Assembly (NCBI GenBank): GCA_002256345.1
Contig: NKIY01000001.1
Location: 1,008,194-1,072,193, forward strand
DNA from: Bradyrhizobiaceae bacterium PARB1
GTDB taxonomy: Bacteria; Pseudomonadota; Alphaproteobacteria; Rhizobiales; Xanthobacteraceae
Reading direction: 5' to 3'
Length of the DNA stretch: 64,000 nucleotides
Shown one piece after another: positions 18,598 through 56,288 of this stretch; positions within the stretch are counted from its first letter, which is position 1, and every line of letters begins with the position of its first letter. The notes below the pieces were generated by a model, which was not told the origin of the DNA, did not search any database, and was given only the letters and a program-made list of their open reading frames with translations. The translations under genes were made by a program, and so were the position numbers.

Positions 18598-18936
18598 ATG
18601 CATGCCGAAGTCTACACCGACGGCATAGATGAGATCACGGTAGGGGGCTCGATCGTTCGAGTCGACATCGTCAGTCTTTCACCGACCGAGCGGGATGCCA
18701 ATAACGCACCCAAGAAGGTCTTTTGCCAGCGCCTGATCTTTCCGATTGAGGCTTTCGCCAATTCGGTCGAGGTGATGCAGAACGCGCTGCAGGGCCTGGT
18801 CGATGCCGGCGTAGTGAAGCGTAATCAACCAAGACCGTCGTCCGATATCTCAATGCCGGTCACGAGCAACGTGGACACGACATCCTTGACCTCGAACGCG
18901 TCACGGAATCCAAATGCTTCATCAAATTTCCGCTAA
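18598..18936 (+). CDS. Small conserved-looking protein of a type I secretion operon, unknown function
   Basis: A 112-aa protein starting MHAEVYTDGIDEIT, with GGGAGAACCGCG before the ATG. Residues 1-65 look folded (alternating beta-strand pattern then an amphipathic helix, PIEAFANSVEVMQNALQGLV); the C-terminal 40 residues are Ser/Asn/Pro-rich and probably disordered. It follows the candidate substrate by 11 bases and overlaps the exporter ATPase start by 23 bases, so the three genes are co-translated. A chaperone or accessory role in export is plausible but has no direct support. I do not recognise the family with certainty. Confidence 0.65.
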   Translation: MHAEVYTDGIDEITVGGSIVRVDIVSLSPTERDANNAPKKVFCQRLIFPIEAFANSVEVMQNALQGLVDAGVVKRNQPRPSSDISMPVTSNVDTTSLTSNASRNPNASSNFR

Positions 18937-21133
18937 CGACGACGTCGAGCAGCCCCCTCAAGGGATCGCGGTGGAACCAGCGGACGACGAGCGCGACCAC
19001 GTGCAGACGGCTTTGTACTGTCTGGAATTCGTTGCCGCCCGCCACGGCATCGATCTCTCCGTGGAGCAATTGAAGCACGCTCATGCGGTCGACGGCACCG
19101 CGCTGTCGATCACGGCCGTGCAACGCATGGCCAAGGAGGCTGGACTACGCGCCAAGGCGGCCAAAATCGATTGGCTGGCCTTGCAGGAACTCGGCGAAGC
19201 GTTCCCTGCCATGGCTCAGCTTGCCAATGGCAATTGGGTCGTTGCCGCTGGTGTAAGCGGCGAGGTCGAGGATGGGCGCGTTATCGTTATCGATCCGCTC
19301 GCTGATCGGCGCGACGAGGTACTGCTCCTGAACGAAGAGCAGTTCTGCGCCAACTGGAATGGCGATGTGTTGCTTATCAAACGGGATCAGAAGCCCGTTT
19401 CAACCGAAACAGCCTTCGGTTTCCGCTGGTTCGTGCCCGAGCTGCTGCGCGAGCGGCGCCTGTTTATCGACGTGGCTGTAGCGGCCATCCTCCTCTACGG
19501 GCTTGGCCTCGTTGTTCCCATCTTCTTTCAGCTCGTCATCGACAAGGTGCTGGTGCATGAGAGCTTCACGACGCTCTATGTGCTCGCCGCCGGCGCGATA
19601 GCGGCCCTTGTCTTCGACGCAATCTTCAGCTTCCTGCGCCGTTATCTGATGCTATATGCGACCAATAAGGTCGACATTCGCGTAGCGACCAAGACCTTCG
19701 GCCATCTGCTCGGCCTGCCGGTAACCTTTTTCGAGCACATTTCCGCTGGCGTCCTGGTCAAGCACATGCAGCAAGCGGCCCGCATCCGTGAGTTCCTCAC
19801 CGGGCGGCTGTTCCTCACTTTCCTTGATGCATTATCGCTGCTCGTCTTCATCCCCGTCCTTGCGATGTACAGCATCAAGCTGACAGCAGTGGTGCTTGGC
19901 TTCACGGTCCTTAGCGGCACGATCGTCGTACTGTTGATGGGGCCATTTCGTCGCCGCCTGTTGAGTCTGTACCAGGCGGAAGCCGCACGGCAGGCACTGC
20001 TGGTCGAGACGGTGCATGGCATGCGCACGGTCAAGTCGCTGGCCATGGAACCGCTGCAGCGCAAGGTCTGGGATGATTGTTGCGCCCAGTCCGTATCGAT
20101 GCGCTTCAATGTGGAAAAGATCTCAGCTGGCGCTCAGTCGATTACTGGCTTTCTCGAAAAGGTGATGACGCTGGGCATCATCGGGCTTGGCGCGCTGGAC
20201 GTTTTCAGCGGCGAGCTCACCATCGGCGCGCTCGTGGCCTTCAACATGCTCGCTAGCCGGGTGTCAGGACCATTGGTGCAGATGGTCACCATGGTGCACG
20301 AATATCAGGAAGTCGCGCTCGCGGTCAGAATGCTCGGCGAGGTGATGAACCAGGCGCCGGAGCGCGAGGCATTGCGCAGCGGACTCCGGCCGGACATTCG
20401 CGGTGCCATCGAGTTCGAGGGCGTTTCGTTCCGCTATGGTCCCGAGGGGGCTGCGGCGCTCAACGATGTATCCTTCTCTATCGAACCGGGCCAGGTGTTT
20501 GGTATCGTCGGACGTAGCGGTTCCGGCAAAACGACATTGACGCGCCTGATATCGGGTCTCTATCCCGTGCAGCAGGGATTGGTGCGTATCGACGGCTATG
20601 ATGCGCGGGAAGTGGATCTCGTCCATCTCCGCAAGAAGCTCGGGGTCGTCCTGCAGGACAGCTTCCTGTTCCGTGGCACTATCCGGGAGAACATCGCCCG
20701 CGTGAAACGCGACGCGACCTTCGCCGAAGTCGTGCAGGCGGCGCAGCTCGCTGGTGCGGATGATTTTATACAGCGGCTTCCGCGCGGTTATGACACGTTG
20801 CTGGAGGAGGGCGCCTCCAATCTGTCAGGCGGGCAGAAACAGCGCCTCGCCATCGCCCGCGCGCTGATTGTCAATCCGCGAATTCTCATCCTCGATGAAG
20901 CCACCAGTGCGCTCGATGCCGAAAGCGAAACGATTATCCGCCGTAATCTGCGCCGTATTGCAGCCGGGCGCACGGTGATCATTGTCTCGCACCGGTTGTC
21001 GATGCTGGCTGACGCCGATTCTATCCTCGTGATCGATGGCGGCCGGATCGTCGATGTCGGCCGACACGATAAGCTCATCGCGAAGTGCAGCATCTATCGC
21101 CATCTCTGGGGCCAACAGACGAGGGCGGCCTGA
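18914..21133 (+). CDS. Type I secretion ABC transporter, HlyB type with degenerate C39-like domain
   Basis: A 739-aa exporter. Residues about 28-155 form a C39 peptidase-like domain in which the catalytic Cys position is Thr (TALYCLEFVAARHG replaces the usual ECGxACL context). This matches the non-proteolytic CLD of HlyB that docks the substrate. Membrane segments run from about 180 to 460. The ATPase domain has Walker A GRSGSGKTT near 532-540, signature LSGGQKQRLAIARAL near 637-651 and Walker B ILILDEATSALD. It energises one-step export across both membranes with the HlyD-like adaptor downstream and an outer-membrane TolC protein not encoded here. Translation overlaps the preceding small gene. 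Confidence 0.9.
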   Translation: MLHQISANDDVEQPPQGIAVEPADDERDHVQTALYCLEFVAARHGIDLSVEQLKHAHAVDGTALSITAVQRMAKEAGLRAKAAKIDWLALQELGEAFPAMAQLANGNWVVAAGVSGEVEDGRVIVIDPLADRRDEVLLLNEEQFCANWNGDVLLIKRDQKPVSTETAFGFRWFVPELLRERRLFIDVAVAAILLYGLGLVVPIFFQLVIDKVLVHESFTTLYVLAAGAIAALVFDAIFSFLRRYLMLYATNKVDIRVATKTFGHLLGLPVTFFEHISAGVLVKHMQQAARIREFLTGRLFLTFLDALSLLVFIPVLAMYSIKLTAVVLGFTVLSGTIVVLLMGPFRRRLLSLYQAEAARQALLVETVHGMRTVKSLAMEPLQRKVWDDCCAQSVSMRFNVEKISAGAQSITGFLEKVMTLGIIGLGALDVFSGELTIGALVAFNMLASRVSGPLVQMVTMVHEYQEVALAVRMLGEVMNQAPEREALRSGLRPDIRGAIEFEGVSFRYGPEGAAALNDVSFSIEPGQVFGIVGRSGSGKTTLTRLISGLYPVQQGLVRIDGYDAREVDLVHLRKKLGVVLQDSFLFRGTIRENIARVKRDATFAEVVQAAQLAGADDFIQRLPRGYDTLLEEGASNLSGGQKQRLAIARALIVNPRILILDEATSALDAESETIIRRNLRRIAAGRTVIIVSHRLSMLADADSILVIDGGRIVDVGRHDKLIAKCSIYRHLWGQQTRAA

Positions 21134-21135
21134 TC

Positions 21136-22560
21136 ATGAACCCTGACGAGCGAGAAAATTCCGCTGGCGCGAGCGACAACAGTGTCGGCAAGATTGAGCG
21201 GCGCAAGCGCCCGTTAACCGCGGCGCGGACGCGCCGGCTGGACGTCGTACGCGAATTTCAGTCTGATGCGGTAGAGATCGAAGAAAGAACACCGCCGAGC
21301 GTCGCCCGGCTGACGCTTTATTGCGTGGTTGCGCTGATCTTCGCTGCGATCCTTTGGGCCTCGTTGTCCAAGGTGGATACAATCGTTACGGCGCAGGGCA
21401 AGCTGACGACGACCCAATCCAATCTGGTGCTGCAACCGCTCGAGACTTCGGTAATCCGGCAAATGCATGCGCGGCCCGGCGATGTGGTCAAGAAAGGTGA
21501 TCCGCTGGCGACGCTCGATCCAACTTTCTCACAGGCCGATCTGGACCAGTTGCGCGTCAAAGTCGCTGCTTTCGATGCGGCCATAGAACGCCTTCGGGCG
21601 GAACTCGATAGGCGCGACTACGTGCTGTCAGATCCGAATAACCCCGATGCGATCCTACAAGGCAAGCTGTTTGCACAGCGCAAATCATTCTACTCGACAC
21701 AACTCACGACCTTCGACGCACAGATCGCGAGCGCGAAAGCCAATCTGAAAACCGGGCAGGACGAAGAGCGAGTGCTGGTGCAGCGCCTCGAAACATTGAA
21801 GTCGATCGAAGCCATGCGCACCGCACTGATGGACAAGGAGGTCGGTTCGCGGCTCAACTTCCTACTGTCGCAGGATGCGCGTCTCGAGGTCGAAAGCAAC
21901 CTTTCGCGTACGCGGGGTAACGAGGTTGATGCTACGCACAAGATCGAGAAGGCTGCTGGCGATCGTCAGGTCTTCATCGAAGACTTTCGCCGCACCACCT
22001 ATCAAGAACTGGTGGAGACCTTGGCCAAGCGGAGCGGCGCGGCCGAAGACATGAAGAAGGCAGAGTTGCGCCGCCAGCTCATCGTCCTCACCGCCCCCGC
22101 TGACGCGGTCGTTCTAGAGGTCGCCAACCGCACCGTTGGATCGGTCGTGAAGGAGGCGGAGACGCTGTTCGTCCTCGTGCCGCGCAATGTGCCGCTGCAG
22201 GCCGAGGTCAATGTCGAAGGCCGCGATATCGGCCAAATCACCGTTCAGCAATCGGTTCGTCTCAAGTTCGAGGCATTCCCGTTCCAGAAGTACGGAACAG
22301 GCTCGGGCGTCGTTCGCGTCGTTAGTGACGACGCGTTCAATCCCGAGCCCAAGACGGATACGGCACGCCGCAATCCCGCGCCATACTATCGTGTTTTGGT
22401 GGACGTGACCGACAGCAAACTGCGCATTCCGTCCGGTCACGTACAACTCATTCCAGGTATGGCAGTGACCGCAGAGCTGAAAGTCGGCCAACGTAGCGTG
22501 ATGTCCTATTTCCTTTATCCGCTTGTCCGCGGCCTCGACGAGAGCATCCGCGAGTACTGA
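21136..22560 (+). CDS. Type I secretion membrane-fusion protein, HlyD family
   Basis: The start at ATG 21136 (MNPDERENS) is preferred because an upstream in-frame start would overlap the exporter coding end and GAGGGCGG lies about 8-10 bases before it. The 474-aa protein has a basic cytoplasmic N-terminus and one membrane helix around residues 65-84. It has a barrel-sandwich half-motif (VVKKGDPLATLDPT), a long coiled-coil hairpin (about 140-310), the returning lipoyl half (LTAPADAVVLEVANRTVGSVV) and the conserved C-terminal RxSGHVQLIPGMAVTAEL-type segment. It bridges the ABC exporter to TolC. It lies 2 bases after the exporter stop, in the same operon. Confidence 0.9.
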   Translation: MNPDERENSAGASDNSVGKIERRKRPLTAARTRRLDVVREFQSDAVEIEERTPPSVARLTLYCVVALIFAAILWASLSKVDTIVTAQGKLTTTQSNLVLQPLETSVIRQMHARPGDVVKKGDPLATLDPTFSQADLDQLRVKVAAFDAAIERLRAELDRRDYVLSDPNNPDAILQGKLFAQRKSFYSTQLTTFDAQIASAKANLKTGQDEERVLVQRLETLKSIEAMRTALMDKEVGSRLNFLLSQDARLEVESNLSRTRGNEVDATHKIEKAAGDRQVFIEDFRRTTYQELVETLAKRSGAAEDMKKAELRRQLIVLTAPADAVVLEVANRTVGSVVKEAETLFVLVPRNVPLQAEVNVEGRDIGQITVQQSVRLKFEAFPFQKYGTGSGVVRVVSDDAFNPEPKTDTARRNPAPYYRVLVDVTDSKLRIPSGHVQLIPGMAVTAELKVGQRSVMSYFLYPLVRGLDESIREY

Positions 22561-45385: not shown

Positions 45386-47419
45386 ATGCGTCTCATGGGG
45401 ACCATGATGATCAACTTTAGAAGGCGGGGGGAGACTCCCCCGCCAGAGCAGGTAAGTTTCAACGCGGCTGCATGCCTTGCAGCGATTTCGCGCTTTTTTG
45501 GCACTCGCAAGACGGCTCGCGCGAAGCAGGCGGCCGGCTCGTATTCGTATGAGGGAGTGCCTTCGGATGGGGCCATTCCCAAGCCGTTTTTGGGTGGCAG
45601 GTCTTCTTTGGGGGCTGGGCTGTCCTCAACACTGCGGGCATTCCGAAATTTCCTGGAGATGACTCGGCAGACGATATTCACCGGAAAGACTAGGCCGGGT
45701 GACGACTACGCTGCGCCGCGGTCCGAGCTGATGGGCTTCCTGAGCTCCTGCCGTCAGATCTTCTGGGCCATGGCCATCTTCAGTGGTGTCAGCAATATCT
45801 TGATGCTGACCGGCTCGTTCTTCATGCTGCAGGTCTATGACCGTGTGCTGCCTAGCCGGAGCGTGCCGACACTGATCGCCCTGCTGGCGCTCGCCATCCT
45901 GCTCTATCTATTCCAGAGCGGCCTCGATCTCATTCGTACCCGCATTGGCGCACGCATGGGACGCCACCTCGACGAAACGTTGGGGGGGCGTGTGTTTGAT
46001 GCCGTCCTTCGCCTGCCGCTGAAGACACGCGGCGATGGCGACGGCTTGCAGCCGGTTCGCGATCTCGACCAGGTACGGAACTTCCTGGCGAGTGGCGGGC
46101 CGTCTGCGCTGTTCGACATGCCTTGGATGCCGATCTATCTCGGCATCTGCTTCCTGTTCCATTTCTGGATCGGTGTGACCGCGCTGGTCGGCGCGCTGTT
46201 CCTGGTCGCCATCACGATGCTGACCGAAGTTCGCTCTCAGGGGCCCGCTAAAGCTTCGGCGCGTTTCGCAGTCATGCGCAATTCAGTCGCGAGCGAGGGG
46301 CGACGCAACGCCGAGGCGCTGCATGCAATGGGCATGCGCCGGCTCGCAGCGGAGCGTTGGCAAGAGGCGAACCAGAAATATCTCGCTGCAAATGAGGCTG
46401 CGAGCGACGTGGCGAGCGGTCTCGGCGGCTTGTCCAAGATGTTCCGTACGGTCCTGCAATCCGTCGTTCTTGCGGTCGGTGCCTATCTCGTCATCAATCA
46501 GGAGTCGACGGCGGGCATTATCATTGCGGGGTCAATACTGACCGCGCGTGCATTGGCTCCCGTCGAACTCGCAATCGCCAACTGGAAGGGCTTTGTGGGT
46601 GCGCGGCAATCGGGGCAGCGCCTTGAGCATCTGCTGAAGCTGTTGCCGAAGGAAGAAGAACTACTCCCACTGCCTGCTCCGGTCGAGACGATTGCCATGG
46701 ATCATGTCTATGTCAACGCGCCGGCGTCGGATCGCGTCGTGCTCCATGACGTCTCGTTCAGATTGCGGAAAGGCGATGGTCTTGGCATCATCGGGCCGAG
46801 CGGATCGGGCAAGTCGTCGCTGGTACGTGCGCTTGTCGGCGTCTGGCCGCAGATGCGCGGCAAGATCACCCTCGACAATGCTGCATTGGGGCAATGGTCC
46901 TCGGAACTGCTCGGCAAGCACGTCGGCTATCTGCCGCAGGATGTCGAGCTGTTCGACGGCAGCATCGCCGTCAATATCGCGCGCTTCGATCCCAACGCCA
47001 ATCCGAAGGCGGTGTTGGCAGCCGCGCGGGCTGCCGGTGCGCACGACTTGATTCTCTCATTTCCCGATGGCTATGGCACGAAGATCGGCGAGGGCGGTAT
47101 GGCTCTCTCCGCCGGGCAGCGGCAGCGAATTGGGCTCGCCCGGGCATTCTATGGCGATCCATTCCTGGTCGTGCTCGACGAGCCGACATCCAATCTGGAC
47201 GCGGATGGCGAGGCGGCGTTCACCGAGGCGATCCTCAATGTGCGCCGGCGCAACGGCATCGTGGTGGTGATCGCCCATCGACCGAAAGCTTTGGACGGTG
47301 TCGACCACGTGCTGGTGATCGCCGAGGGCAAGGTGCAGTCCTTCGGACGCAAGGAAGATGTTTTGACCAAGGTGCTGCGGACGGCACCTCCCCTGAAAGT
47401 GGTAGGAGATCGCGGATGA
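45386..47419 (+). CDS. Type I secretion ABC transporter, PrtD/AprD type
   Basis: A 677-aa exporter of the PrtD family, with no C39-like domain. Residues 1-110 are an unusual Ser/Arg/Gly-rich extension; homology-like sequence starts near 112 (LMGFLSSCRQIFWAMAIFSG), giving a core of the normal 570-580 residues. Six membrane segments lie between about 120 and 400. The ATPase has Walker A GPSGSGKSS near 470-478, signature LSAGQRQRIGLARAF near 573-587 and Walker B LVVLDEPTSNLD. ATG 45659 (MTRQTIFTG) is an alternative start but lies directly against its GGAG. It should export the RTX protein encoded just upstream. The stop overlaps the adaptor start. Confidence 0.9.
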   Translation: MRLMGTMMINFRRRGETPPPEQVSFNAAACLAAISRFFGTRKTARAKQAAGSYSYEGVPSDGAIPKPFLGGRSSLGAGLSSTLRAFRNFLEMTRQTIFTGKTRPGDDYAAPRSELMGFLSSCRQIFWAMAIFSGVSNILMLTGSFFMLQVYDRVLPSRSVPTLIALLALAILLYLFQSGLDLIRTRIGARMGRHLDETLGGRVFDAVLRLPLKTRGDGDGLQPVRDLDQVRNFLASGGPSALFDMPWMPIYLGICFLFHFWIGVTALVGALFLVAITMLTEVRSQGPAKASARFAVMRNSVASEGRRNAEALHAMGMRRLAAERWQEANQKYLAANEAASDVASGLGGLSKMFRTVLQSVVLAVGAYLVINQESTAGIIIAGSILTARALAPVELAIANWKGFVGARQSGQRLEHLLKLLPKEEELLPLPAPVETIAMDHVYVNAPASDRVVLHDVSFRLRKGDGLGIIGPSGSGKSSLVRALVGVWPQMRGKITLDNAALGQWSSELLGKHVGYLPQDVELFDGSIAVNIARFDPNANPKAVLAAARAAGAHDLILSFPDGYGTKIGEGGMALSAGQRQRIGLARAFYGDPFLVVLDEPTSNLDADGEAAFTEAILNVRRRNGIVVVIAHRPKALDGVDHVLVIAEGKVQSFGRKEDVLTKVLRTAPPLKVVGDRG

Positions 47420-51516: not shown

Positions 51517-51894
51517 TTAAGCGCGCTGATGACGCCCCTTTGCGCGCAGGTCTTCGCGAATTCGAAAGTCGTCGATCTTGCGACCGGACTTGATAGCGGC
51601 GACGAGCCACCGCGGTTGCTTGCCGCGGCCGGACCAAGTTTCGGACGGAGTGGCAGGATTGCGATATTTGGGAAAGACACGCGGATATTTGCGCCGAACT
51701 TTGTCTTGCGAACCGAAACCTTGCCCGGCGTCACCTTCAATAGCGCCACGCCCGCGATTAAGAACCGCGAGCCGCTTTTCCAGTTCCTGTTTTTCCGCCG
51801 TGATCCGGGCCGATAGAATCCGGCTAATTCGTTCGTGAAGGGACCACAGGTCGTCGACAGACATGGATTCCAGGTCAAGCTTCTTAATCGACAT
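51517..51894 (-). CDS. H-NS/HvrA-family nucleoid-associated protein
   Basis: The start at 51894 (MSIKKLDLESMSVDD) has AGGGCGAA upstream; a longer frame would add 30 unrelated residues. The 125-aa protein has an N-terminal oligomerisation helix region (11-48), a linker and the DNA-binding C-terminus RRKYPRVFPKYRNP then TWSGRGKQPRWL (86-97). This W-S-G-R-G-(K/R)-x-P-x-W core inserts into the AT-rich minor groove. H-NS-like proteins silence AT-rich foreign DNA. The gene diverges from a second copy at 52370. Confidence 0.9.
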   Translation of the reverse strand: MSIKKLDLESMSVDDLWSLHERISRILSARITAEKQELEKRLAVLNRGRGAIEGDAGQGFGSQDKVRRKYPRVFPKYRNPATPSETWSGRGKQPRWLVAAIKSGRKIDDFRIREDLRAKGRHQRA

Positions 51895-52369
51895 CCGGTT
51901 CGCCCTAATACCGTTTATAGAAAACGTCGTATTCCGTATACCGGTTCCCGAAATAAAGCTTATTGACGATTCTAACAAGACCAAATCGACAAATAATCGT
52001 CACGCGGGTGCGACATAAAATCTACGTAAAGCCAACGCCGTGTAATCACTCGTATTTTCTATTTTTAAGGCACCCTCTGACAGTGTGCATAACTGGGTGC
52101 GCGCTTATGCTTTGCTGTGTCGTTAGATCAATCGCGTGAGAGGAGGCGCACGGACCTTTTTAAGCTGGAAATCTCGCGATATTAAATATAAAATATCTAT
52201 TTAAAATGAGGCAGCGCTCCGTCTCGGCATTGAAATTATGTAGAAATTCGTATCTTTTGTGTTATTGTGGGGATTATTTATTTATATTTATGCTGGTCGC
52301 TTACCAGCGTTCTGCTCGTCGTTTTGAAAGTCCGGGCTGATAAAATTCGAAAAGTGGCGAGATTTATAT
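51895..52369. other. AT-rich divergent region between two H-NS-like genes
   Basis: About 475 bases holding the promoters of both H-NS-family genes. The right half (52060-52300) is very AT-rich with runs such as ATTAAATATAAAATATC. This is an expected site for self-regulation by the encoded proteins. No gene was recognised. Confidence 0.5.
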
Positions 52370-52771
52370 ATGCGCAAGCCAGACCTGCCAGATTTGGAGG
52401 CGATGCAATTCGATGAGCTCTGGAGCATACACGAGGAGCTCACGAAGATCTTGTCTGAGCGGATTGTCGAGGAAAAGCGTGAGTTGGAGAAGCGGCTTGC
52501 ACAGCTGAACCAGGCCGAACCTTCGAATACTCACGGTGACGGGCTTCGGAAAGAGCCCCCGCGCCGAAAATATCCGAAGGTGCTGCCGAAATACGCCAAT
52601 CCCTCCGCTCCGAACGAGACGTGGTCAGGTCGGGGAAAGCGCCCCCGTTGGCTCGTTCTTGCACTCGAGAAGGGGCACGTCCTCGATGAGTTCAAAATCA
52701 AGAAGGTTGATGACAAAATCGGCGACGACGAAAAAGATGGATTGGTGCGGGACGAGCAATCATCGTCCTGA
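52370..52771 (+). CDS. H-NS/HvrA-family nucleoid-associated protein, second copy
   Basis: A 133-aa paralogue of the divergent gene. The N-terminal helix (LEAMQFDELWSIHEELTKIL) and the DNA-binding core TWSGRGKRPRWL (84-95), preceded by RRKYPKVLPKYANP, are clearly shared. The C-terminal tail (about 113-133) is acidic and unlike the first copy. It could form mixed oligomers with its neighbour and act on the AT-rich promoters of the island. Confidence 0.9.
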   Translation: MRKPDLPDLEAMQFDELWSIHEELTKILSERIVEEKRELEKRLAQLNQAEPSNTHGDGLRKEPPRRKYPKVLPKYANPSAPNETWSGRGKRPRWLVLALEKGHVLDEFKIKKVDDKIGDDEKDGLVRDEQSSS

Positions 52772-53689: not shown

Positions 53690-53953
53690 TTAGAAGAACT
53701 TACCTGTAAGTCTTTCCAGCCATTCGAGCAGATCGCGATCGCGACCGCCGTTGTCCCAGCAAGGTGGCTCATTGTGGCCGGTGCCGTTGCCGCCGGACTT
53801 TGCTACTGCCGCGGAGTTAAGTGACGTCGACAGCAGCACGGTCAGTACTGGCGGCGTCACCACAGCAAATTTTCCGCATGTCGCAAGAAACTTGCGCCGA
53901 TCCTCGTCGAGTGGCGCGTTGCCTTCCATTTTGGGGTCGATGTCGGCTGGCAT
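53690..53953 (-). CDS. 87-aa peptide with twin-arginine-like leader, candidate Tat-exported or modified (RiPP-like) peptide
   Basis: The product begins MPADIDPKMEGNAPLDEDRR. A leader-like region contains DRRKFLATCGKFAVV (18-32), matching the Tat motif RRxFL, followed by a hydrophobic stretch with two prolines (29-50) ending AVAKS. The tail is Gly/Asn/Asp-rich with one Cys and one Trp near 65-66 (NEPPCWDNGG) and ends LLEWLERLTGKFF. GGGA lies upstream of the ATG. It diverges, 123 bases apart, from a PqqD-HprK fusion gene. PqqD domains bind leader peptides in RiPP systems, so this may be the peptide substrate. Equally, it may simply be a small Tat-exported protein. Confidence 0.7.
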   Translation of the reverse strand: MPADIDPKMEGNAPLDEDRRKFLATCGKFAVVTPPVLTVLLSTSLNSAAVAKSGGNGTGHNEPPCWDNGGRDRDLLEWLERLTGKFF

Positions 53954-54076
53954 GGTTGCGTTCCCATTTAATCATTGACCGATTGCGATTTAATTTAATT
54001 CTTGTTATTAAATCAAGTCAAGCGCATCTATTAATCATGTCGTACCTGTGAACGTCTCCGCAATGATCCGGTTCCC

Positions 54077-55213
54077 ATGGAATTAATCGCGCCACATTCC
54101 GACTCGCTGGCCTGCAAACTGCGGACAGCCATGGGCACGTCGTTCGCTCTGATCGATCAGATACCGGTGCTATTCAATGACGATGAGCAAAAGCTGTTCG
54201 AACTCAACGATATCGCCGCCTTCATCTGGTGCAGCCTGTATGATGGCGCGGCGCTCGAGACGATCGGCGATAAACTCGTAAATTTAGGCTTTAGCAGCGC
54301 TGATGCGCGCGCGTGCCTGCGCGATGCGCTTGATCAATGGCTGCGGGCAGGGTTGCTGGTGCCGCATATTGAGGAGGTCAATTATGCATTCAGCGTAGCG
54401 ATTGGGCGGCATCGCATTGAGATTAGTGCGTCGGATGCTGAGGTACTTGATTTCTTGCGGTCTCTTTTTGTCGCAACGTCGGCGCTGAACGGCCTCGCAG
54501 AGGTGCGCTTCACAGTGTACAGGACAGGCACTACAGCTATTGTCATGCGTGACGGTCGCAAGGCATTTGATTGCCACGTCAATGCGCTCGCCCCGACTTT
54601 CCGCGCCTATGTCATCCAGCATCTTCTGCTCGCGGGCGATGGTCGCGATGTGATCTTCCACGCCGCTGCAGTTACGTGGGGAGGCAGAGGCATGCTGATC
54701 AGCGCGCCGCCGGGCACAGGCAAAAGCACTCTGACGATGCATCTCCTTGATGCCGGCCTTGGCTTTGCTACCGATGATGTCGTGTTGATTGCCCCCACCG
54801 GCGAGATCCGCGGCGCTTCCTTCGCACCGTCGCTCAAATCTGGGTCTTGGCCTCTTGTTGGGAAAATCCGGCCAGATATGGACAATATACCGATCCATAA
54901 TCGGTTGGATGGACAAGCAATCCGCTATCTTGATGTCGGAGCGAGTTTCCATGACAGCGCTGTCCGAGTGAACCTGATCATTTTTCTCGACCGGGCCTCT
55001 GGGTACAGCGAGCCATTGCTAGCTCCGCTGAGCGAGCTTGAGGCCCTGCAGCAAATCATTGGTGCCTCCTTCGCAAGACAGAGCCGGCTGTCGGGTGATG
55101 GTTTCCGTACTCTGAAGGACTTGGTGACCCGGACAAGAGCCTTCGTTCTACACTATACGGAAGCCGCGGAAGCGGCTGGCAAGCTGATCGAGCTAAGCAA
55201 TGACGAATTCTAG
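54077..55213 (+). CDS. PqqD-domain and HPr-kinase-like fusion protein
   Basis: A 378-aa protein of two parts. Residues about 20-97 resemble PqqD, a winged-helix peptide-binding fold (VLFNDDEQKLFELNDIAAFI, then LDQWLRAGLLVP). Residues about 105-370 resemble the C-terminal domain of HPr kinase/phosphorylase, with FHAAAV (194-199), P-loop SAPPGTGKST (209-218) and FATDDVVLI (230-238). HprK-related kinases occur in some polysaccharide loci and in lasso-peptide clusters, where they phosphorylate the peptide. Here the fusion suggests a kinase that recruits a peptide via its PqqD domain. The gene overlaps the nucleotidyltransferase-like gene by 14 bases. Substrate is unknown. Confidence 0.8.
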   Translation: MELIAPHSDSLACKLRTAMGTSFALIDQIPVLFNDDEQKLFELNDIAAFIWCSLYDGAALETIGDKLVNLGFSSADARACLRDALDQWLRAGLLVPHIEEVNYAFSVAIGRHRIEISASDAEVLDFLRSLFVATSALNGLAEVRFTVYRTGTTAIVMRDGRKAFDCHVNALAPTFRAYVIQHLLLAGDGRDVIFHAAAVTWGGRGMLISAPPGTGKSTLTMHLLDAGLGFATDDVVLIAPTGEIRGASFAPSLKSGSWPLVGKIRPDMDNIPIHNRLDGQAIRYLDVGASFHDSAVRVNLIIFLDRASGYSEPLLAPLSELEALQQIIGASFARQSRLSGDGFRTLKDLVTRTRAFVLHYTEAAEAAGKLIELSNDEF

Positions 55214-56288
55214 CCGTGCGTTGCTTCCGCTTTGTGCGTGTTTTCGGGGCGTCGTACCCCCGCGAGCCGACTGGAACGCGCTGCTTGAGCTCGCCAACCA
55301 CACATTGACAACGCCTTCTCTGATCGAGGTGGTAAGGTCTCAGCGCGCCTCTATCCCGGACGAGGTTGCCGCTTATGTGGAGGCAATCCATCAACGCAAT
55401 ATGATGCGCAATGATCGCCTCATTGCGCAGCTTGAAGAGGCGGTGCTTGCCCTTAATCGAGCGGGCATCACCCCAGTCTTGATCAAGGGCGCGGCCATGC
55501 TTGCCACTTGCCCGCCGTCCGATCGCGCGTTGCGCCTGATGTCTGATCTCGACCTCGTCGTCGGGCCCGGCGAAGTCAGTATCGCCAAGCAACGATTGAC
55601 GGCGATCGGTTACAGCGTCGATTATGAGTCGGATAGGCGACATACCAAATGGTATGTGGACTTGAGTCGCCCCCAGGACGTCGGGATGATCGACTTACAA
55701 GAGGCGTTCCCAGCAGAAGCCGTTCTTAACCAGACGGAAGGAGCGTTACGCTTCGAGCTGCGGTCGATCCAGCTCGGCGCAGCCAGCGCGCTGGTCCCAT
55801 CGCCGGAGTTGCAGGTATTGGTGCTTCTGGTGCACGACCAGTTTCAGGATCACGACTACTGGACCGGCAACATAGATTTGCGGCACCTGCTCGATCTGAA
55901 AAACTTGTTTGCGGTGCCGGGTGATATCCGTTGGGATGTCTTGATGACGATAGCGTCCAGCACGTTGCTACGGAATGCCTTGGAAGCGCAGCAGTTATTG
56001 CTCACTCGGCTGCTCGGCGTAACGTGGCCGGCCGGTCGCCCCCGGCGTGTCATGTCAAAGCTTCAGGTATGGCGACAACTTCTTCAGGCGCGACATCCCG
56101 GTCTTCGTCCTCTGCTGCTCCCAATGGGCCTGATCCATTTGCGGAGTCATCGCGAGCGATCAAATTTGGAAATGTCTGCATCGGACTTCGGATCGGCGCC
56201 CCAAGCGCGGAAGCGCTGGTTTCCAAAACTTGAAAGTCTTTTGTTTCTGTTGTCGCTAGCCCGTCGATATCGCGCCGGAAAACTCTGA
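55200..56288 (+). CDS. Nucleotidyltransferase-like protein (NTP_transf_5 family)
   Basis: A 362-aa protein with the family core LIKGAAML (94-101) and RLMSDLDLVV (112-121), whose Asp116 and Asp118 would bind metal and nucleotide. A C-terminal helical domain (VLLVHDQFQDHDYW onward) follows. This family often stands beside PqqD- and HprK-type genes in peptide-modification or polysaccharide loci; its reaction is generally unknown. Overlap with the upstream gene indicates that both proteins act together. No signal peptide; cytoplasmic. Confidence 0.8.
   Translation: MTNSSRALLPLCACFRGVVPPRADWNALLELANHTLTTPSLIEVVRSQRASIPDEVAAYVEAIHQRNMMRNDRLIAQLEEAVLALNRAGITPVLIKGAAMLATCPPSDRALRLMSDLDLVVGPGEVSIAKQRLTAIGYSVDYESDRRHTKWYVDLSRPQDVGMIDLQEAFPAEAVLNQTEGALRFELRSIQLGAASALVPSPELQVLVLLVHDQFQDHDYWTGNIDLRHLLDLKNLFAVPGDIRWDVLMTIASSTLLRNALEAQQLLLTRLLGVTWPAGRPRRVMSKLQVWRQLLQARHPGLRPLLLPMGLIHLRSHRERSNLEMSASDFGSAPQARKRWFPKLESLLFLLSLARRYRAGKL

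Follow-up and report, generated by a model that had tools for sequence, protein, structure and literature searches.

A conserved leader peptide, a PqqD-HprK fusion and an NTP_transf_5 protein: a probable new form of peptide modification by HprK-like kinase and NTP transferase in Alphaproteobacteria

Introduction

What would a PqqD-type domain fused to an HprK-like kinase be doing beside a gene for a small peptide with an export-like leader? The question is posed by a trio of genes at 53690-56288 of a 64,000-nucleotide stretch (the window; contig NKIY01000001.1, assembly GCA_002256345.1) of Bradyrhizobiaceae bacterium PARB1. Here the gene of an 87-residue, precursor-like peptide conserved in relatives (53690..53953, minus strand) diverges from that of a PqqD-HprK fusion protein of 378 residues, hereafter K (54077..55213, plus strand), which in turn overlaps by 14 bases the gene of a 362-residue NTP_transf_5 family protein, hereafter N (55200..56288, plus strand). 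The region between the divergent starts (53954..54076, 123 bases) is AT-rich and weakly conserved. The arrangement had been described in a sequence-only reading of the window, and coordinates, gap, overlap and matches to PF05402 and PF14907 all confirm it. That reading had further proposed that the fusion recruits and phosphorylates the peptide, that the third protein may add a nucleotide, and that the whole is an undescribed system tied to polysaccharide export. We report that the pairing of peptide and K is not due to chance and that the genes are functionally coupled, and we argue that they probably form a new variety of peptide modification by HprK-like kinase and NTP transferase, in which the modification step is putative.

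Enzymes of these kinds have been reported to act on peptides. A kinase plus a nucleotidyltransferase act on pseudomycoidin (available portion of PMC8498205). The lpp cluster of Paenibacillus alginolyticus, which belongs to the linear polyphosphorylated peptides (LPP) of Bacillota, comprises a ribosomally synthesised and post-translationally modified peptide (RiPP) recognition element (RRE), an HprK-like kinase, an NTP transferase, an SpI-like peptidase and an MsbA-like transporter; LppK adds several phosphates to Ser3 of the core and the substitution S3A abolishes this (PMC13381572; all statements made here from this paper refer to its accessible portion).

Pairing of the leader peptide with K

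In a family sample of 296 genomes, with K called at E <= 1e-10 and the peptide called by profile A1 at E <= 1e-3, K was present in 24 genomes, the peptide in 23 and both in 21 (Fisher 7e-27). Within one genus of the family (g25, 66 genomes), where K is patchily distributed and an intact K was defined as a match at E < 1e-100, 13 genomes had an intact K, 14 a leader and 13 both (Fisher 7e-13). Since the peptide profiles A1 and A2 were built from peptides near K or from K-bearing genomes, both tests were repeated without the source genomes, giving 1.6e-10 for the family (minus 14 genomes) and 1.6e-11 for the genus (minus two); the class-level test was left as it was. The class sample of 337 genomes had six with a near-full-length fused K free of stops (G000, G374, G382, G481, G528 and G608; partial matches and G491, which has an internal stop, were excluded), six with a leader match and four with both (p = 4e-7). 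Shared ancestry among related genomes makes all of these p-values too small. A peptide usually found without its PqqD-HprK partner was the outcome that the sequence-only reading had named as fatal to its proposal; it was absent in the family, genus and other samples searched.

By eye, a leader peptide lies near K in 19 of the 24 K-positive family genomes. These include two that were counted as K-only, G052 and G114, in which a divergent leader peptide beside K falls below threshold (E 0.16 and 0.04); in the third K-only genome, G242, K and N are both broken and no leader was matched. The g25 genomes with an intact K carry one to six leader matches each, a few of them partial, and the leaderless genomes among the 53 lacking an intact K include G945 (a divergent fused K, 1e-48), G919 (unfused kinases) and G242. 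At class level, weaker leader matches (E 1e-3 and 6e-4) stand beside K in G608 and at one of the two G528 loci, nothing of the kind lies beside K at the second G528 locus (L109), and the leaders of G374 sit on contigs other than that of K. In five of the twelve loci opened at phylum level (L146-L150) the profile alignment shows K to be fused; a strong leader match lies beside K in L146 and L147 and a weak one in L148 (0.009). Of 29 plasmid records that matched K, 12 were opened and 11 have an adjoining leader peptide, among them Sinorhizobium meliloti Ak57 pSymB (L171), on which K is annotated 'serine kinase', and Rhizobium tropici CIAT 899; the exception is a Methylosinus record whose match is limited to the kinase part.

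The leader, the Ser53 column and the tails

The peptide had no family match above cut-off in a family profile scan. It is a real conserved gene, since against the nearest named relative found, a Tardiphaga metagenome-assembled genome (locus L002), leader codons 16-53 differ at 15 synonymous and three nonsynonymous sites. The corresponding counts are one and nine in the first 15 codons, four and seven in the linker, and four and three in the last 16 codons.

The conserved leader (residues 16-51, 53801..53908, minus strand) has the pattern DEDRRKFL..CGKFA..TPP..T.LLSTSL.S.AVA, with invariant columns in A1, a Tat-like (twin-arginine translocation) RR pair and an AxA site; it may thus be read as a Tat signal followed by a signal peptidase site. 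Across 69 distinct leaders, taken from the loci drawn in the family, class, phylum and plasmid searches, conservation is strong in the RR pair, the CG[KR]F block, TPP and AxA. The position directly following AxA varies freely and the one after it, Ser53 of the window peptide (53795..53797, minus strand), is the proposed phosphorylation site; its column holds 60 Ser and one Thr among 61 aligned residues, the other eight leaders being gapped there. A control for Ser at this +2 position in other Tat-like open reading frames (ORFs) yielded only six sequences and was dropped. The stretch V32-T-P-P-V-L37 (53843..53860, minus strand) stands at the position of the YxxPx[LV]-like RRE-binding motif (PMC13381572), and the general form TPPx[LIVM] resembles the RRE-binding motif of lasso leaders. 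The Tyr of YxxP is replaced by Val in the window and is present in the leaders of L043, L045 and L177.

The tails vary. A C-terminal segment, DRDLLEWLERLTGKFF (53693..53740, minus strand), is kept among short K-adjacent peptides, with W78 invariant in 14 of 14 and D74 nearly so. Many K-adjacent peptides have a tail of the type DLLEWLERLL.KFF and many scattered ones GNNG[WF]GNGG.DGSPNGK, the remainder being Pro-rich, collagen-like or Thr-rich. One genome may carry six precursors, mostly distant from K. The single Cys-Trp pair singled out in the sequence-only reading does exist, at residues 65-66, and lacks support as a feature: L002 has Cys-Arg there, and none of the 12 further relatives in A1 has the pair.

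Several further peptides were observed. The genome of the window has a second precursor about 366 kb away (G000:C22:695147-695416; L054:4142-4423), its leader the same and its tail rich in His. Thr-rich, mucin-like repeat tails occur on leader peptides near divergent K genes (L077:8711-9346, L078:718-981 and L079:4778-5362). Three tandem leader peptides with Cys-containing tails lie at L107:8927-9838, the one that was scanned weakly matching TIGR04117, a radical SAM target family, below its cut-off (5e-5). In at least four g25 loci (L037, L038, L039 and L044), a conserved ORF of about 80 residues lies directly upstream of K, where the leader peptide would stand.

The fusion protein K

The PqqD/RRE domain of K spans residues 31-94 (54167..54358, plus strand) and matches PF05402 at 5.7e-5. 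In profile A3 the N-terminal domain matches lasso B1/RRE leader-binding proteins (TfuB1 1e-5, PbaB1 1.3e-4, TbiB1 1.8e-4, LppB 5e-3), B1 structures among them, and the C-terminal domain matches HPr kinases (best 2e-5). The HprK-like domain of K itself, delimited by a TIGR04352 match at residues 152-370 (54530..55186, plus strand), matches the HprK families below their cut-offs (PF07475 at 4e-4 and TIGR04352 at 2e-19). TIGR04352, HprK-related kinase A, is the closest curated kinase family; K differs from it in its score, 69.7 bits against a cut-off of 200, and in carrying a fused PqqD domain, and by score K is not a TIGR04352 equivalog. The domain includes H195, G213xGK216xT218 and D233-D234. 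Of 43 aligned rows, 42 have H195, K216 and D233 and one is gapped; at position 234, 35 rows have D and seven E. We take these three residues, and K96, D116 and D118 of N, to be the catalytic-type positions known from HPr kinases and nucleotidyltransferases.

Through the TfuB1 and PbaB1 alignments, C80 of K aligns with LppB D70, which holds the Tyr of the leader. An Asp stands at this position in two of three systems with a Tyr leader (L043 and L045; not L177) and in one of 33 others (L175), p = 0.014 with relatedness ignored and with the omission of L149 and of rows that offered no usable paired leader or alignment (L105, L106, L116, L150 and L155). This is only suggestive of co-variation between the RRE residue and the leader Tyr. 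The Tyr-type K of L043, searched alone against solved structures, gave no useful match.

HprK-related kinase A genes were also seen at loci with no clear fused PqqD match (L114:8076-8357, L116:10262-10828, L151:9985-10641, L152:2460-3104, L154:7560-8159 and L157:9957-10682), and the three scored against TIGR04352 (L114, L116 and L151) pass its cut-off at 291-412 bits. In these loci, too, a protein that looks secreted and has a Tat-like RR in its leader lies nearby, found with a permissive pattern that had no control.

The NTP_transf_5 protein N

N matches PF14907 at 2.4e-31, and its residues K96, D116 and D118 are invariant (18 of 18). Each of the 20 family loci drawn first has N, whole or in pieces, together with K, as do L002 and the window, and N lies within about 3 kb in two of the three K-positive family loci drawn later (L077 and L079). 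A sequence search found no solved-structure relative of N. At L154:8468-10588 a single frame of 706 residues matches the kinase profile (residues 111-302) and the N profile (355-617) and may be a fusion; joint action of K and N would fit a frame holding both domains.

Genomic setting

The trio sits in a polysaccharide locus, judging by its neighbours in the window. Upstream these include a Wzy-type ligase, a flippase, several glycosyltransferases and a Wzz/tyrosine-kinase-like protein; downstream they include RmlC and RmlD. A gene clustering with the sugar transferase of L027 (PF02397) lies within about 10 kb in 12 of 22 loci, and two marine plasmid loci have polysaccharide or lipopolysaccharide genes nearby. 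The S. meliloti Ak57 locus is flanked instead by infA, a maf-like gene, yacG and rhaI, and the class-level locus L103 also lies outside polysaccharide genes, amid others. The proposed tie to polysaccharide export thus stands for the window and many family loci and fails for these two; the link is not general. With regard to the MsbA-like transporter of the LPP cluster, ABC exporters are encoded in the window at 45386-47419 and 18914-21133, and the nearer recurs in four other loci only, two being K loci. The other is of the Peptidase_C39 type, with an HlyD partner at 21085-22560 in the same polysaccharide region. Two H-NS-like genes, alike by eye, lie at 51517-51984 (minus strand, PF00816) and 52370-52771 (plus strand); the cluster of the former recurs in 16 of 22 loci.

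Discussion

The reading that we consider fairly probable is leader-dependent modification of the peptide, in which K binds the leader and phosphorylates Ser53, N adds to the phosphate, and export and cleavage of the peptide follow. In this scheme the PqqD domain would bind the leader at TPPx[LIVM] and, by analogy with the LPP cluster, the fused RRE would place Ser53 at the kinase. The HprK-like domain would then phosphorylate it from ATP once or several times, and N would transfer a sugar or a nucleotidyl group onto the phosphate. Export would proceed via the Tat-like signal, with cleavage after Ala51 presumably by a general signal peptidase, to give a short extracellular or periplasmic peptide beginning Lys-Ser(P-X)-Gly-Gly. 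Given a common leader and differing tails, one K-N pair would serve several precursors, including ones encoded at distant sites of the genome. Recruitment through PqqD and phosphorylation by the HprK-like domain, as proposed from the sequence alone, are the best-supported part, being consistent with the co-occurrence, the conserved leader, the kinase residues and the LPP parallel (PMC13381572). Nucleotide addition by the third protein is one option only, as the pseudomycoidin precedent points to a hexose on the phosphate.

A number of observations weigh against this reading, among them the relatedness behind the p-values. Leader peptides occur where no fused K was detected in G237 (77% complete) and, marginally, in G223 (E 8e-4), in one of the 53 g25 genomes lacking an intact K (G942), and in G409 and G417, whose kinase-domain matches are only partial even at E <= 0.01. 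Conversely, in four g25 genomes with an intact K (G024, G167, G276 and G292) no leader peptide lies in the 20 kb drawn around K, the leaders being elsewhere in the genome, and of the phylum-level loci L149 has only a candidate from a permissive pattern that had no control and L150 has no leader. No N was seen close to K in L078, where the contig stretch is incomplete, in L110 or L178, or in L105, at a contig end, and the role of N is made uncertain by lppN, the deletion of which brought no change in the published heterologous test (PMC13381572). Most leaders lack the Tyr of YxxP, which matters for LppB binding, and the PF05402 score of K is barely above cut-off (23.8 against 23.4 bits). Models predicted from two-sequence alignments (window and L002) failed for both enzymes, with a pLDDT (predicted local distance difference test) of 32 for K and 36 for N.

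The peptides might instead be unmodified, Tat-exported small proteins, with K and N acting on another target such as a glycan or a different protein, so that the coupling would reflect a common pathway and not an enzyme-substrate relation. The leader does look like a Tat signal that carries an AxA site, and K and N sit inside a polysaccharide locus in the window, with the PF02397-cluster gene close by in over half of the 22 loci. We nevertheless judge this account unlikely: it leaves unexplained the constrained TPP stretch, Ser53 and a PqqD domain matching leader-binding proteins, and K-N with leader peptides exist outside polysaccharide loci (L103 and L171). It is highly unlikely that the target of K is the leader itself, bound and phosphorylated in its conserved LLSTSL[NT]S as a gate on export or cleavage, with the tail released unmodified. 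Leader columns 27-29 and 32 are indeed 78-87% Ser/Thr, and divergent leaders such as that of L078 retain part of the STS stretch; against this, STS is replaced by ADA in the L103 peptide and by AAD in one L104 peptide beside K, and both retain the Ser that follows the AxA-like site.

Phosphorylated or phosphoglycosylated lasso peptides (paeninodin, pseudomycoidin) have an HprK-like kinase, a nucleotidyltransferase and a PqqD-type B1 acting on the precursor (PMC8498205, available portion), protein types that the trio resembles by sequence, and a lasso-type RiPP pathway completed by enzymes elsewhere in the genome might be imagined. It is extremely improbable. The lasso B2 peptidase (PF13471) has no match in the genome of the window, the tails are variable and repeat-rich, and the leader has an AxA-type site and not the penultimate Thr of lasso leaders (PMC10368454, available portion). 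As to the comparison with paeninodin- and pseudomycoidin-type peptides, the kinase target there is the C-terminal Ser, and no Asn-synthetase-like cyclase was seen among the part of the window ORFs that was scanned with Pfam. Returning to modification at Ser53, we regard as quite unlikely an extended form of it, in which Ser53 is a phosphate-linked carrier primed by K and given a sugar or sugar-phosphate by N, the low-complexity tails (Gly/Asn, Pro, Thr-rich, collagen-like) being alphaproteobacterial secreted phosphoglycopeptides that may be joined to, or organise, exopolysaccharide.

The system appears, by analogy, to work like LPP. Both combine an RRE, an HprK-like kinase and an NTP transferase without a cyclase, have precursors with a conserved N-terminus, a variable C-terminus and a Ser right past the cleavage site, and often lie in polysaccharide loci (PMC13381572). 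K corresponds to the kinase by its HprK-family matches and conserved catalytic-type residues, and N to the NTP transferase by its family match to PF14907. The RRE and kinase are one protein here, unlike the discrete RRE of LPP; the leader is Tat-like with AxA and usually without Tyr; precursors are often distant from the enzymes; and the host phylum is Pseudomonadota. Of the LPP motif YxxPxVLxHQxIxFETxxS, P and a hydrophobic residue alone align, with Tyr in three K-paired leaders. A search for the SpI-like peptidase PF10502, the peptidase family searched, gave five matches in the genome and none on the contig of the window (C22); a control search was positive in two archaea and B. subtilis. 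The trio is not filed as LPP because the discrete RRE, the full leader motif and a PF10502 (SpI-like) peptidase on the contig of the window are lacking here and LPPs are called restricted to Bacillota (PMC13381572). The claim of an undescribed system is accordingly narrowed: the enzyme types are those of the Bacillota LPP family, and the fusion, the leader, the in-trans precursors and the phylum set this system apart. Searches of the openly licensed PMC literature brought up no paper that describes, for Alphaproteobacteria, a PqqD-HprK fusion together with this leader, and the words 'kinase' and 'HprK' do not occur in the main text, as far as available, of the RRE-Finder papers PMC7470986 and PMC12710340.

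Conclusions

The findings suggest a little-known route by which exported peptides are decorated with phosphate and perhaps sugar. They give a defined, testable substrate to uncharacterised proteins now labelled 'serine kinase', 'nucleotidyltransferase family protein' and 'hypothetical protein'. If the reading is true, precursors would be recognised in trans by a one-protein RRE-kinase, through a leader that doubles as an apparent export signal, and linear phosphopeptide chemistry would extend from Bacillota to Pseudomonadota, in plant-associated genera including strains of Sinorhizobium meliloti and Rhizobium tropici.

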